From: a virus
DNA: 26,830 nucleotides
Reading direction: 5' to 3' (one strand)
IMG/VR virus record: IMGVR_UViG_3300030328_002852
Location: 1 to 26,830 of that record
Under the pieces are notes generated by a model. It was not told where the DNA came from. It made no database searches and worked only from the letters and a program-made list of their open reading frames with translations. Positions 3,905 through 26,830 of the stretch are shown here, one piece after another. Within the stretch, counting starts at the first letter, position 1, and every line of letters starts with the position of its first letter. The position numbers were made by a program, and so were the translations under genes.

Positions 3905-4234
3905 GTGACAAAGAAAGGTAAGAAAGGAACTAAATATGAAGTCAGCTCTAGAATTTCTGCTGTTTATGGACTCTTAGCATCGGCAGCTAGTAGGCAAGAA
4001 ATTATTCAACACTGTTCAGTAAATTTCAATGTGTCAGAGAGACAAGCTGATACTTATATAACAAGAGCAAGAGAACAAATTTCTAAAGATTGTGAATTAT
4101 CCAGACCTGCTTTTTTGGCTGAATGTTTAACACGTCTTAGAAATTATGAGAAGGCTGCAATTAAAAGAGGTCATATTCAAGTGGCTGTAAATTCTGTAAG
4201 ACTTCAAGCTGAATTGGTTGGCATTGCTTCATGA
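3905..4234 (+). CDS. terS: Terminase small subunit (probable)
   Basis: The 109-residue product begins at GTG 3905 with a lysine-rich tail. A helical DNA-binding region follows (about residues 30-60, SRQEIIQHCSVNFNVSERQ) that looks like a helix-turn-helix, and the C-terminus is helical and probably oligomerising. This architecture, the size and the immediate position before terL (ATGA overlap at 4231-4234) fit a small terminase, which recognises the packaging site and presents DNA to the large subunit. The assignment depends mainly on gene order, because small terminases are poorly conserved in sequence. Confidence 0.7.
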   Translation: MTKKGKKGTKYEVSSRISAVYGLLASAASRQEIIQHCSVNFNVSERQADTYITRAREQISKDCELSRPAFLAECLTRLRNYEKAAIKRGHIQVAVNSVRLQAELVGIAS

Positions 4235-5559
4235 GTCTTTTATTAGACTCTTGCCCTGGTGGATTACTTTTAGAACCGCCTGAACCTGCAACATCTAAAT
4301 TTGATTACTTAGCTTTATCTCAAAAACTTTATACAAATCTAACTGAACCACAAAAGTTGGTTTATGACGCTGGAGTGAGATTTACTTATCTCTGTTCAGG
4401 TAGAAGATTTGGAAAAACTTATTTAGCAATTACCAGATTAATTAATTGGGCTATTGAAAAGCCTGGTGGTCTTTTTTATTACGTTACTGCTACCTATCGC
4501 ATGGCAAAACAAATTGCTTGGATTCAACTAAAGCAGATGGTTCCCATGGAGATATTTGCATCAAAAAATGAAAGTGATTTATCTGTAACTCTCACTAATG
4601 GATCAACTATTTCTTTAAAAGGTGCAGAAGATCCAGACAAATTAAGAGGGGTTTCTTTGTCTGGAGTTGTTGTTGATGAGGCGGCGTTTGTCAGGGAAGA
4701 TGCTTGGACAATGGTATTAAGGCCAGCTCTTTCTGATCAACAGGGTCCAGCTTGGTTTATTACTACACCCGCTGGATTGAACTGGTTTGCTGAGGCATGG
4801 TCAAATGCAGAAGATGATGATGATTGTTCTACCTTTTCATTCACTACTGTTGAAGGTGGCCATGTATCGAAGGAAGAAGTAGAGGCAGCAAAAAGAACAT
4901 TAGACAGCCGAACTTTTAGCCAAGAATATGAAGCCAGCTTTGTTAATTTGGTTGGTCGGGTTGTTCCAGACTTTGATGAAAATAATATCTCTGAAGATGT
5001 TGTTGATTTAGGTGGTGAGCTTCTTGTTTTCGCAGATTTCAACGTGTCTCCCATGCACTGGATCATTTGCCAAAGAGTTGGTGGTGATCAATTACATGCC
5101 TTTGATGAGATTCATATTAAAGAAACTCATACAGATGAGGCTTGTTCAGAATTGCTTAGGCGTTATCCAAACAGAGAAATAAAAGCCTTTCCAGATCCAA
5201 CTGGTAATGCTAGAAAAACTTCTGCTGGAGGAATTACTGATCATGGCATCCTAAGAAATAGAGGTATCTGGGTTTATCCAAATAAAAGCCCTTATGGACA
5301 GACTGATAAAAGAAATGCGGTTAATGCAATGGTTATGGATGCAGAAGGAACAAGAAGATTCTTTATCCATCCAAGGTGTAAGCAAACAATTAAATCACTT
5401 AGGAACTTGACCTTTAAAGAAGGAACCAATATTCCAGATAAGGATTCAGGTTGGGATCATGGATGGGACGCAATTTCATACGGGATATTAGGAGCGTTTA
5501 ATAGAGTGAAGCCCTGGAAGTCTGGTAAGGCAAAAGCAAAGGTTGCTCAGATTTGGTAA
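4231..5559 (+). CDS. terL: Terminase large subunit
   Basis: A complete 442-residue packaging motor. The N-terminal ATPase domain has a Walker A motif (SGRRFGKT, residues 56-63), a Walker B motif with its catalytic glutamate (VVVDE, 146-150) and a coupling motif (WFITTPAG). The C-terminal nuclease domain shows the expected acidic residues: VFADFNVSP (D269), FPDPTG (D322) and DHGWDAISYGI (D409 or D413). It would pump DNA into a prohead docked at a portal and cut it to length. Portal genes normally follow directly, but here a non-coding stretch and the integrase follow instead. The frame is intact, with no sign of decay. Confidence 0.95.
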   Translation: MSLLLDSCPGGLLLEPPEPATSKFDYLALSQKLYTNLTEPQKLVYDAGVRFTYLCSGRRFGKTYLAITRLINWAIEKPGGLFYYVTATYRMAKQIAWIQLKQMVPMEIFASKNESDLSVTLTNGSTISLKGAEDPDKLRGVSLSGVVVDEAAFVREDAWTMVLRPALSDQQGPAWFITTPAGLNWFAEAWSNAEDDDDCSTFSFTTVEGGHVSKEEVEAAKRTLDSRTFSQEYEASFVNLVGRVVPDFDENNISEDVVDLGGELLVFADFNVSPMHWIICQRVGGDQLHAFDEIHIKETHTDEACSELLRRYPNREIKAFPDPTGNARKTSAGGITDHGILRNRGIWVYPNKSPYGQTDKRNAVNAMVMDAEGTRRFFIHPRCKQTIKSLRNLTFKEGTNIPDKDSGWDHGWDAISYGILGAFNRVKPWKSGKAKAKVAQIW

Positions 5560-6307: not shown

Positions 6308-7621
6308 TTAATCGTCAGGAAGAATGATAGATGACATTACACGTTTTCTATATTCTTCTTTTGATACCCATTTTAGATAATGATTTTTATGGGTTTCTAC
6401 ATCATGGCCCATTGCTAAAGCAGCTTGAGAAATATCTACGTGTTTGAATCTTGGATCTGTTGCCAGTCTTATAGCGAAGGTGTGTCTCAGGTCATAGCAC
6501 CTAATTTGTTTTTCAATTGTTTCTGGCTGATGTTGTCCTCTTGCATCTGGAACACTAGCCGCCCATTCAGGTAGCACCTGGCGCAATCTGTCACCAATAA
6601 ATTCACCAAGCTTTTTATTGTTCATGCATATTCCTTGATCAGTTGGATCTTTTGAATCCCAATCTTTTGATGGATCATGCTGGCTAACTAATTTAGGTTT
6701 TGCTATTTCATGCAATTGTTTTTGGCATTCTTCAAATCTGTTCTTTAGGCCATAGCGCACAATCCAAGATTTATATAAAGGGAAGACCCAATGTTCATAT
6801 TTAGATTTTGTTCTCCAATATCCAGGGACATAAACCCAACCAAATTGAATACCTTCTTCTTTGTTTTCTTCAGTGATATTTGAAACCCAATGAAGTTCAT
6901 GATTTCTCAATCCGTAATTCATGAGCATGGCCAAACACCATTGCTCTAGTTTGTATTTAGGCCATAAGTTGTCCAAATATTTTTCAGCTTCTTCTTGAGT
7001 TGGGATTCCTCTTATCTCAACTTTCTTTCCATTGGTCAATTTGTTCTGGCTATTAATTCTTTCATTGTGGAGATTTCTAAGGTCTTGATATTGCTTTTCA
7101 GTTAGCCAAGTAGGTTCCTGATTTTTATTATCTGCTTTTTTTAGAGCCTTAATTATTTGCTTGATAGTATCTAATCTATTTCTGCAAGCACTAGATCCAA
7201 GCTTTTTAACTGTTACCCAATCCTGTATAGCATCAAAATTTCTAGGAATATCATTTCTTTTTAAGTCATTTAATCCAGCCCAAAGGTTAACGGTTGAACC
7301 TTCTTTCATTCTTAAAGGCCAATCATCCTTGCAAGCTTTTTCTATCTCTGCCCAAGAAGGGAGAATTGTTTTAGTAGTTTCTTCTTTCTCGGTGGTTACT
7401 CCTGCCCAATCTTTTTGGTCGGTAACAATGCAGGCATCAAAAACTTTATTTATATCAATAGGATTATCTGTTCTAAATGGTTTGCATGAAATTCTTTTTC
7501 TGTCTTTTTGATCTCTTACATATATAAAAGGAGATTTAGAATCTTTCTCTAATCTCCATCTTGTCCCAGCTCTTTTTAGATCTTTTGTGTATTCAGGCCA
7601 GGTTCTAAGAATTAAGGCCAT
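6308..7621 (-). CDS. int: Tyrosine-family site-specific integrase
   Basis: The 437-residue product has the tyrosine-recombinase catalytic set: R239 in NYGLRNHEL, a lysine at 272-274 in WRTKSK, R379-H380 in YDLRHTFAIR, H406 in MGHDVETH and the nucleophile Y415 in KNHYLKWV. Box II reads Y-D-L-R where many members have H-D-L-R, so the first histidine is replaced by tyrosine (Y376), a tolerated variation. The N-terminal 80 residues would bind arm sites and the next 100 the core. It lies next to attP and is transcribed away from it, as is usual. It would integrate the circular genome into a host tRNA gene. Start ATG 7619-7621; no good ribosome-binding site is visible. Confidence 0.95.
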   Translation of the reverse strand: MALILRTWPEYTKDLKRAGTRWRLEKDSKSPFIYVRDQKDRKRISCKPFRTDNPIDINKVFDACIVTDQKDWAGVTTEKEETTKTILPSWAEIEKACKDDWPLRMKEGSTVNLWAGLNDLKRNDIPRNFDAIQDWVTVKKLGSSACRNRLDTIKQIIKALKKADNKNQEPTWLTEKQYQDLRNLHNERINSQNKLTNGKKVEIRGIPTQEEAEKYLDNLWPKYKLEQWCLAMLMNYGLRNHELHWVSNITEENKEEGIQFGWVYVPGYWRTKSKYEHWVFPLYKSWIVRYGLKNRFEECQKQLHEIAKPKLVSQHDPSKDWDSKDPTDQGICMNNKKLGEFIGDRLRQVLPEWAASVPDARGQHQPETIEKQIRCYDLRHTFAIRLATDPRFKHVDISQAALAMGHDVETHKNHYLKWVSKEEYRKRVMSSIILPDD

Positions 7622-7627
7622 TTAGGA

Positions 7628-7647
7628 AGTCGGGAAAAAGTCGGGAA
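7628..7647 (+). repeat. Integrase arm-type repeat pair, left side of attP
   Basis: AGTCGGGAA occurs at 7628-7636 and again at 7639-7647, 11 bp apart start to start, i.e. about one helical turn. The same pair, with one base changed in the second copy, occurs on the other side of the core at 7867-7886. Paired, phased direct repeats on both sides of a tRNA core are the expected layout of sites bound by the N-terminal domain of a tyrosine integrase. Confidence 0.7.
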
Positions 7648-7660
7648 GAATTGCCCCAAG

Positions 7661-7700
7661 TATAACCATGTATCACCAACTATCACCAACTATTCAACAG
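7661..7700 (+). repeat. Four tandem 10-bp units in attP arm
   Basis: TATAACCATG, TATCACCAAC, TATCACCAAC and TATTCAACAG lie head to tail, two of them identical (7671-7680 and 7681-7690). The 10-bp period matches one helical turn. Between the left arm repeats and the core, this is where excisionase or a host bending protein would bind; that role is inferred. Confidence 0.5.
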
Positions 7701-7741
7701 AAGAGAAGTAAATGTATTCCTTGAAATCCCTTTGAGGCAAT

Positions 7742-7768
7742 AAAAAAGCCCCTGAGGGCTTTGTTTTT
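7742..7768. terminator. Bidirectional terminator adjoining the attP tRNA core
   Basis: AAAGCCC (7745-7751) pairs with GGGCTTT (7756-7762) around CTGA. T-tracts lie on the plus-strand side (7761-7768) and, on the minus strand, beyond 7745. Read in the tRNA direction (minus) it falls just after the CCA end, so after integration it can replace the host tRNA gene's own terminator. Confidence 0.7.
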
Positions 7769-7866
7769 ATTTGGTGGCGGGGGGAAGATTTGAACTTCCG
7801 ACCTTCGGGTTATGAGTCCGAACTTATTTTCTAAAATCCCTTGATGGCATTAGACTAGGTTTTGAA

Positions 7867-7886
7867 AGTCGGGAAAAATTCGGGAA
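7867..7886 (+). repeat. Integrase arm-type repeat pair, right side of attP
   Basis: AGTCGGGAA (7867-7875) and ATTCGGGAA (7878-7886) repeat the left-side pair in the same orientation and with the same 11-bp phasing. The last base lies directly against the ATG of the neck gene at 7887, so integrase bound here would cover the start region of the tail operon. Confidence 0.7.
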
Positions 7887-8348
7887 ATGGCTTTAAAAGA
7901 TTGGGTTCCTCAGGTCAGGAAAGCTTTAGACCAAGCTTTGACTGATCATATCGCTCTTACACAGGGAAAGCTATCTCAAGCCAATCCAAAAGATACTGGC
8001 CGTATGGCTTCAAGTTGGTTTGTCGGAAAAGATCAACCTGATCTACAAACAAGGGATGAAAATTGGGGTAAACCTGCAAAAAGAAAATATCCAGGTGGTG
8101 TTGGAACTGAAGGAGTAATTGTTGAACCTGGAGTAATGAAATTAGATATTCCTTATTATCAAAAGAAAATTACTTCTGATTCTGATTGGTATATATCAAA
8201 TAATCTTCCATATGCTGAAAGGGTTGCATATGATCCTGTTTATGCAAAAGGAGCGCCAGGTGGTGTTGCTTGGTTTACAACAATTGCAACACAACAAAAA
8301 AACGATTTAAAAAAACGCATCCTTAAAGAACTAGGAAAAATCAAATGA
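7887..8348 (+). CDS. Neck / head-tail joining protein (HK97 gp10-like)
   Basis: The 153-residue product has a basic helical N-terminus, the motif NPKDTGRMASSW at residues 34-45 (P-x-D-T-G-x-x), and a C-terminal helix rich in lysine. This is the pattern of HK97 gp10-type neck proteins, which sit between the connector and the tail terminator. It is the first gene of the tail operon and overlaps the next gene by four bases. Its ATG immediately follows the last attP arm repeat, leaving only GGGAA as a possible ribosome-binding element. The genes normally preceding it (portal, protease, capsid, connector) are absent here. Confidence 0.7.
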   Translation: MALKDWVPQVRKALDQALTDHIALTQGKLSQANPKDTGRMASSWFVGKDQPDLQTRDENWGKPAKRKYPGGVGTEGVIVEPGVMKLDIPYYQKKITSDSDWYISNNLPYAERVAYDPVYAKGAPGGVAWFTTIATQQKNDLKKRILKELGKIK

Positions 8349-26505: not shown

Positions 26506-26830
26506 TTGATTCCTAAAATTGAAATCCCTGCGATAGGAGTTGAGCCTGTAAAAACATATTTAATACAAGCACCTGTTATTAATGCTCCGAACGTACCAAT
26601 CAATGTACCGATAGGGTTCCCAATTATTGAAATGCCTTGTGTTAAGACAAGAAAAAATTTTGAGAATGATGCCCTGATAGATAATGATCCTGAACACAAT
26701 TTAATTTTGTGTCCTGCACAGACACCAAGTTATGAGCCTATGAGTTACGAGCCTCATAAGCTTGTACCTATAAAAGATGAAGAACCTCAACGATACGAAC
26801 AACCAGAAACCCCTCCAGCACCAGAAGTGC
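26506..26830 (+). CDS. Proline-rich structural-type protein, 3' truncated by window
   Basis: From TTG 26506 the frame stays open for 108 codons to the window edge. The peptide starts IPKIEIPAIGVEPVKTYL, continues with repeated proline/isoleucine pairs (NAPNVPINVPIG), and has PSYEPMSYEP further on. This resembles a virion-associated protein I recall from T4-like cyanophages. The overlap of coding signal on the opposite strand (26442-26699) is a shadow of this frame. The start codon is chosen because it follows the previous stop with only one base between. Confidence 0.6.
   Translation, partial: MIPKIEIPAIGVEPVKTYLIQAPVINAPNVPINVPIGFPIIEMPCVKTRKNFENDALIDNDPEHNLILCPAQTPSYEPMSYEPHKLVPIKDEEPQRYEQPETPPAPEV

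Follow-up and report, generated by a model that had tools for sequence, protein, structure and literature searches.

The site at positions 7622 to 7886 of the window, by which we mean the whole 26,830-nucleotide stretch analyzed, very probably represents the intact attP of a temperate siphovirus of Prochlorococcus, derived from the circular or virion form of its genome. Judging from the comparison with related viral contigs, the N-terminal domain of the adjoining integrase and the arm repeats on both sides of the attP core appear to form a single exchangeable module used with one constant attB, since the domain and both arms change together while the core, attB, and the catalytic part of the enzyme are kept. 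The features on which this reading is based are as follows:

4231 to 5559, plus strand: large terminase (phrog_2, E = 3.9e-43)
6308 to 7621, minus strand: integrase of 437 amino acids, a lambda-Int-like tyrosine recombinase (alignment, AF2 model, PDB matches)
7466 to 7621, minus strand: integrase codons 1 to 52, predicted to form a helix and a three-stranded sheet, the part exchanged with the arm repeats
7628 to 7636, plus strand: P-arm repeat 1, AGTCGGGAA (repeat finding, pattern count)
7639 to 7647, plus strand: P-arm repeat 2, AGTCGGGAA, 11 bp from P-arm repeat 1
7652 to 7691, minus strand: 10-bp array of four units, AGTTGGTGAT AGTTGGTGAT ACATGGTTAT ACTTGGGGCA (period 10; register from relatives)
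7659 to 7664, minus strand: TATACT, a -10-like hexamer and possible int promoter, overlapping the array
7745 to 7762, minus strand: tRNA-Met gene terminator carried with the core (a similar sequence adjoins the host tRNA-Met)
7772 to 7816, minus strand: attP core, the 3' half of an elongator tRNA-Met, reaching from the anticodon loop to CCA and sharing 45 identical bp with attB
7867 to 7875, plus strand: P'-arm repeat 1, AGTCGGGAA (repeat finding, pattern count)
7878 to 7886, plus strand: P'-arm repeat 2, ATTCGGGAA, immediately 5' of the neck gene start codon
7887 to 8348, plus strand: Tail completion/Neck1 protein, the first gene of the tail operon (phrog_169, E = 1.4e-7)

The pairs of A(G/T)TCGGGAA at 7628/7639 and 7867/7878, each 11 bp apart, described in the original prediction, could be confirmed base by base. 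These are the four exact occurrences of the pattern in 26,830 bases, compared with an expectation of 0.16 from shuffles and with 0 of 100 shuffles reaching four, and Tandem Repeats Finder assigned period 11 to both pairs. The same program also reported an array with period 10 at 7656 to 7693 (3.8 copies, 85% matches); the four 10-bp units that had been noticed do exist, but their placement at 7661 to 7700 was off by about 9 positions, the register being 7652 to 7691. The core is, as proposed, the CCA-bearing 3' half of a CAT tRNA on the minus strand, with the terminator described beside it found at 7745 to 7762, but the stretch identical to the host spans 7772 to 7816 rather than extending to 7823, the sequence departing from attB from position 7817 onward. 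The integrase starts at 7621 and the neck gene at 7887, and the arm pairs abut both genes directly. Repeated arm-type sites lie on both sides of the core, as in attP sites of the lambda type.

The terminase and the neck gene show that the site is flanked by phage DNA, and ARAGORN detected no whole tRNA in the window; the gene calls and the missing 5' half of the tRNA thus agree with the attP reading originally given. In particular, the terminase precedes attP, and the genes for tail completion, the tail terminator, and the tape measure follow it. The tape measure is closest to those of the Prochlorococcus siphoviruses MED4-117 and MED4-184/P-HS2 (47 to 50%), and the terminase is closest to that of S-2L (49%). 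The same terL-int-attP-neck1 order is found in a relative, the 37.7-kb phage contig G404, where the portal, scaffold, and head-morphogenesis genes form a separate block on the minus strand. No portal or capsid gene was found in the window or in the remainder of the 29,457-bp record, in which terminase and tail genes are present; the occurrence of head genes elsewhere in G404 indicates that their lack here reflects an incomplete record. A capsid-less satellite was ruled out on the same ground, and a tail operon and a terminase are present, different from tycheposons and phage satellites, which have no virion genes of their own. The end of the window at 26830 coincides with the start of unresolved bases in the 29,457-bp record (L002).

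As had been foreseen for picocyanobacterial genomes, the 45-bp core occurs exactly in the tRNA-Met gene of 19 of the 300 genomes of this family that were searched, and a 73-bp query matched 345 of 400 genomes. We identify the elongator tRNA-Met(CAT) gene beside ansA as the target: in Prochlorococcus AG-402-B05, ansA is followed by an intact tRNA-Met and then by an integrase 87% identical to that of the window, an arrangement which, together with the exact match over 45 bp, is that of a tRNA-targeting attP. Five further genomes carry integrases with 34 to 40% identity (whole alignment) directly after tRNA-Met, with ansA visible upstream in most of them. Furthermore, several host genomes contain displaced halves of tRNA-Met, before which lies sequence resembling the P' side of the viral attPs, as expected for the attR ends of islands. 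The integrated relatives that had been anticipated were therefore found at the level of the integrase at tRNA-Met/ansA, but not as an integrated window phage with the tail operon at one junction: the 400 genomes yielded no lysogen of the window phage, only islands with a related integrase and without a close terminase, the terminase relatives being at most 50% identical.

Some additional observations concern this locus. In AG-402-B05, a decayed attP-like relic (L021:1490-1730) has a truncated integrase start and TTTCACAGT arms, the type of the intact site in that genome. The cargo beside an integrated integrase (L020:11579-14419) is a long protein with repeated motifs of the calcium-binding type, and the DNA of this region repeats internally in near-identical stretches of about 1,035 bp. 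One host genome (L098; G087 contig 1, 231500-239500) contains three tRNA-Met 3' ends within 6.5 kb, which suggests a build-up of elements at this locus.

The integrase is a divergent lambda-Int-like tyrosine recombinase. Its residues R239, K272, R379, H406, and Y415 are invariant in an alignment of 24 relatives, and the histidine of HxxR is replaced by a tyrosine (Tyr376) throughout the 24 sequences, so that the catalytic set R-K-HxxR-H/W-Y is present in a tyrosine variant. The AlphaFold (AF2) model (pLDDT 86.9) has the catalytic-domain fold of tyrosine recombinases, its best PDB matches being lambda Int (1z1g/1z1b; Foldseek E = 2.8e-5); structure comparison gave a Z score of 13.2 to Tn1549 Int and 13.1 to lambda Int, the latter (1z1b) aligning over model residues 7 to 429. 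PHROG, Pfam, and NCBIfam gave no match above cutoff for this protein, and an integrase profile matched none of the sequences of solved structures. Pfam PF00589 reached 11.2 bits (cutoff, 27.1) over residues 368 to 416 only, a match that serves as an annotation aid and is not a property of the enzyme, the family membership being based on residues and fold. The N-terminal 76 residues are predicted to be arranged as helix-strand-strand-strand-helix (H8-18, E22-26, E32-37, E43-50), which we take to be the topology of the arm-binding domain of lambda Int. A fold search with this domain alone returned no significant match; its topology, its position, and the full-length alignment of the model suggest that it is a lambda-type arm-binding domain.

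A pattern search for the tRNA half matched 32 viral contigs, in 31 of which it is a half. In most of the 31 contigs, the core lies between paired or multiple short repeats whose sequence differs between phages; in most of them, paired 11- to 12-bp repeats match on the P and P' sides within one phage. The arm types include CCCGA, TACGA, GATGC, GGAGT, TGACAAG, TTTCACAGT, TGTCCAG, TGTCCG, GGCAGAC, GGCCCA, ATCAACA, and others, so that at least 11 types occur on one attB. The summed P/P' score was 391 for 26 attPs, compared with 211 +/- 15 after permutation, and 189 compared with 112 +/- 8.3 for 15 representatives (about one per arm type, the related L064 and L071 being among them), with 0 of 20,000 permutations reaching the observed value in either case. 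These permutation statistics ignore phylogeny, a concern lessened by the recurrence of arm types across independent samples and by reciprocal mosaics. The link between arms and N-terminal domain relies on a separate test in which P is compared with P', an earlier test on all 24 sequences having been contaminated by the shared 10-bp array. In several distant attPs (L052, L056, L064, L071, and L078), P/P' matching was no better than chance. We could also notice that L071 and L064 agree in the P' arm and almost fully in the catalytic part but differ in the int-side repeats (ATTACCCCC and CTCCCC, respectively), which is possibly a half-finished arm change.

The original prediction had expected the repeats to be present in close relatives with the same integrase. 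Repeat pairs are indeed present in all of them, but their sequence differs, which had not been foreseen, and the difference follows the N-terminal domain. The arms of the window are common to L061, L072, and L075, whose N-terminal domains are 77 to 78% identical to that of the window and whose catalytic halves are only 42 to 52% identical (amino acid figures, the nucleotide identities of the catalytic part being unreliable in these short contigs). Conversely, they do not occur in L020, L065, L060, and L004, with catalytic parts 94 to 98% identical and N-terminal domains 38 to 47% identical. Overall, pairs of sequences with the same arms have 77 to 100% identity in the N-terminal domain and 42 to 99% in the catalytic part, compared with 38 to 87% and 40 to 100%, respectively, for pairs with different arms; within the close group, the arms also show a somewhat smaller, partial association with the catalytic part. 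In L020, L065, and L060, identity is 42 to 54% over residues 5 to 52, 85 to 94% over residues 53 to 85, and 93 to 100% over the remainder, indicating that the exchanged block ends near residue 52, at the end of the third strand. Between the CCCGA and TACGA arms, which are a few bases apart, the N-terminal domains are distinguished by five residues (12, 25, 41, 42, and 66). The sequences are metagenomic fragments; assembly chimeras were discarded as the source of the mosaics, each arm type of the close group coming from at least two independent samples. This covariation supports the view that the N-terminal domain of the integrase binds the arm repeats.

The AGTCGGGAA pairs might instead be operators of a phage repressor or of another regulator, given that both pairs touch the start codon of int or of the neck gene and that the pair on the int side has a promoter-like hexamer immediately upstream. 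We regard this as very unlikely, because the repeat type tracks the N-terminal domain through exchanges of the catalytic half, because comparable paired sites with equal spacing occur in P-SS2, where the neighbors are different (int and bet), and because host islands retain the P arm beside int in the absence of the neck gene. A purely physical link, in which the 5' end of int and the adjacent P arm move together and no binding is involved, would be helped by the short distance between them (7 bp in the window and, within the close group, no more than 35 bp from the start codon of int), and it could account for part of the association of the P arm with the N-terminal domain. However, the P arm is matched by a P' arm about 240 bp distant, beyond the conserved core, which argues against such linkage as the whole explanation, and the exchanged block ends near a structural boundary, at residue 52; we give it a slightly smaller chance still.

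As to whether the site is functional, the 400 genomes without a lysogen, the integration without lysogeny reported for T7-like cyanophages (PMC8776855), and the decayed site of AG-402-B05 would all suit a relic in a phage that no longer integrates. Against this, the 437-amino-acid integrase is intact with its catalytic residues, the core and the four repeats are intact as well, and an integrase 87% identical is found integrated, so that a relic seems improbable to us. Finally, a tRNA half beside an integrase is also typical of a prophage junction, but an attL or attR end is practically incompatible with a site flanked on each side by phage genes and matching arms, with the lack of a 5' tRNA half, and with the terL-int-attP-neck1 order, found also in the 37.7-kb phage contig. 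We therefore retain the interpretation as an intact attP with integrase arm sites.

Between the core and the P arm, the 10-bp array varies on its own. Its units among relatives are of the type AGTTGGTGAT, AGTTGGCTAT, or AGTTGGGTTA, and these combine freely with the arm types, CCCGA, TACGA, and TGACAAG each occurring with two of them; the independent reassortment can be seen by comparing the window (7652 to 7691) with L061, L072, L006, L011, L063, and L004. Such free combination would be expected if a second DNA-binding protein recognized the array with a specificity of its own, and we propose that the array may hold the sites of an excisionase-type DNA-bending protein. A candidate excisionase, a helix-turn-helix (HTH) protein of 75 amino acids that resembles small excisionases, without Pfam or NCBIfam match, is encoded in G404 (L080:10064-10291, minus strand), with relatives near int in many other elements (L052, L053, L054, L057, L058, L064, L066, and L099). 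The TATACT hexamer (one site found, 0.6 expected) is kept in most relatives and overlaps the end of the array, which leaves the P arm in the int leader. Given that its likely promoter and the array overlap and that its leader contains the P arm, int is probably autoregulated.

It is possible to hypothesize the following mechanism. A heterobivalent, lambda-Int-like integrase would act with its catalytic and core-binding domains on the tRNA-Met core, the crossover occurring inside the 45-bp identity and, by analogy, near the anticodon loop, and its N-terminal beta-sheet domain would grip the direct-repeat pairs, spaced about 11 bp (one helical turn), on both sides. Int bound to core and arms would build the intasome, and integration would split the tRNA-Met gene beside ansA, with the phage-borne 3' half and terminator restoring it. 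The int gene would then adjoin an intact tRNA, and Int would be held down by its own arm binding until an excisionase-like HTH protein on the 10-bp array, in the interval between core and P arm, redirects it to excision.

As for the reason of the arm diversification, we can only offer a proposal, which we hold tentatively and with some doubt: it might keep apart elements that share tRNA-Met/ansA, each integrase assembling only on its own arms. If so, co-resident or superinfecting elements would not excise or integrate one another, and the separately reassorting array would be a second, independent specificity for excision. The proposal gains nothing from AG-402-B05, where an intact site coexists with a relic whose arm type is the same. 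The relatives form a natural panel of integrases with the same target, a near-identical catalytic part, and different arm-binding domains with matching sites, as well as the reverse, so that the arm-recognition code of tyrosine integrases becomes readable by comparison and the question of why elements crowding one tRNA gene diversify becomes testable. They also extend what is known of temperate siphoviruses of the most abundant photosynthetic organism by an integration machinery that standard annotation does not see, and support tRNA-Met/ansA as a landing site common to several elements.

Divergent tyrosine integrases of Prochlorococcus and Synechococcus, missed by standard annotation and located beside tRNA genes, have been described by Flamholz et al. 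(PMC10187409); that family, to which we liken ours by description only, is found at tRNA-Phe or tRNA-Cys, whereas the integrase of the window is found at tRNA-Met. The suggestion that temperate long-tailed phages of marine picocyanobacteria are rarely documented is fair, though not new: in P-SS2, an attP was predicted at this very tRNA-Met/ansA locus, its target being known by sequence only (PMC2784084). P-SS2 shares with the window the tRNA-Met/ansA target in Prochlorococcus and an integrase adjoining the core, which we found to be flanked by a pair of 18-nucleotide repeats (89%) 232 bp apart, the spacing in the window being 239 bp. However, its integrase is only 25% identical to that of the window, the arm sequence is another, and its attP lies between int and bet, different from the window, where attP lies between the terminase and neck genes. 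The overlap of TATACT with the array and the P arm in the int leader fit autoregulated tRNA-linked integrases of the kind of IntS/TorI of KplE1, where the promoter overlaps attL and autoregulation is predicted (PMC2951348), although integrase and sites differ and autoregulation in the window is one that we infer.

The lambda Int/attP system corresponds in its heterobivalent integrase with an N-terminal beta-sheet domain, such as we predict for the window, in its asymmetric P and P' arms, and as the top fold match, but the integrase of the window is about 12 to 14% identical to it, has Tyr for the His of HxxR, and targets a tRNA. The mycobacteriophages of cluster K are a small-scale precedent: in K1 and K3, two pairs of 11-bp arm sites surround a tmRNA/tRNA core, the arm consensus differs among close relatives and is linked to N-terminal residues of the integrase, and Pixie and Tweety have the core in common and different arms (Pope et al. 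2011, PMC3203893). In the open-access literature, we found no description of an exchange of arms and N-terminal domain in cyanophages. The K1 differences amount to about one base and two residues, whereas in the group of the window whole repeats and a whole domain of 52 residues are exchanged, and the reciprocal case, in which the same N-terminal domain and arms occur on a different catalytic half, is found too. Thus, what is new here is the scale of the exchange, its being bounded by a domain, and the double dissociation from the catalytic half.
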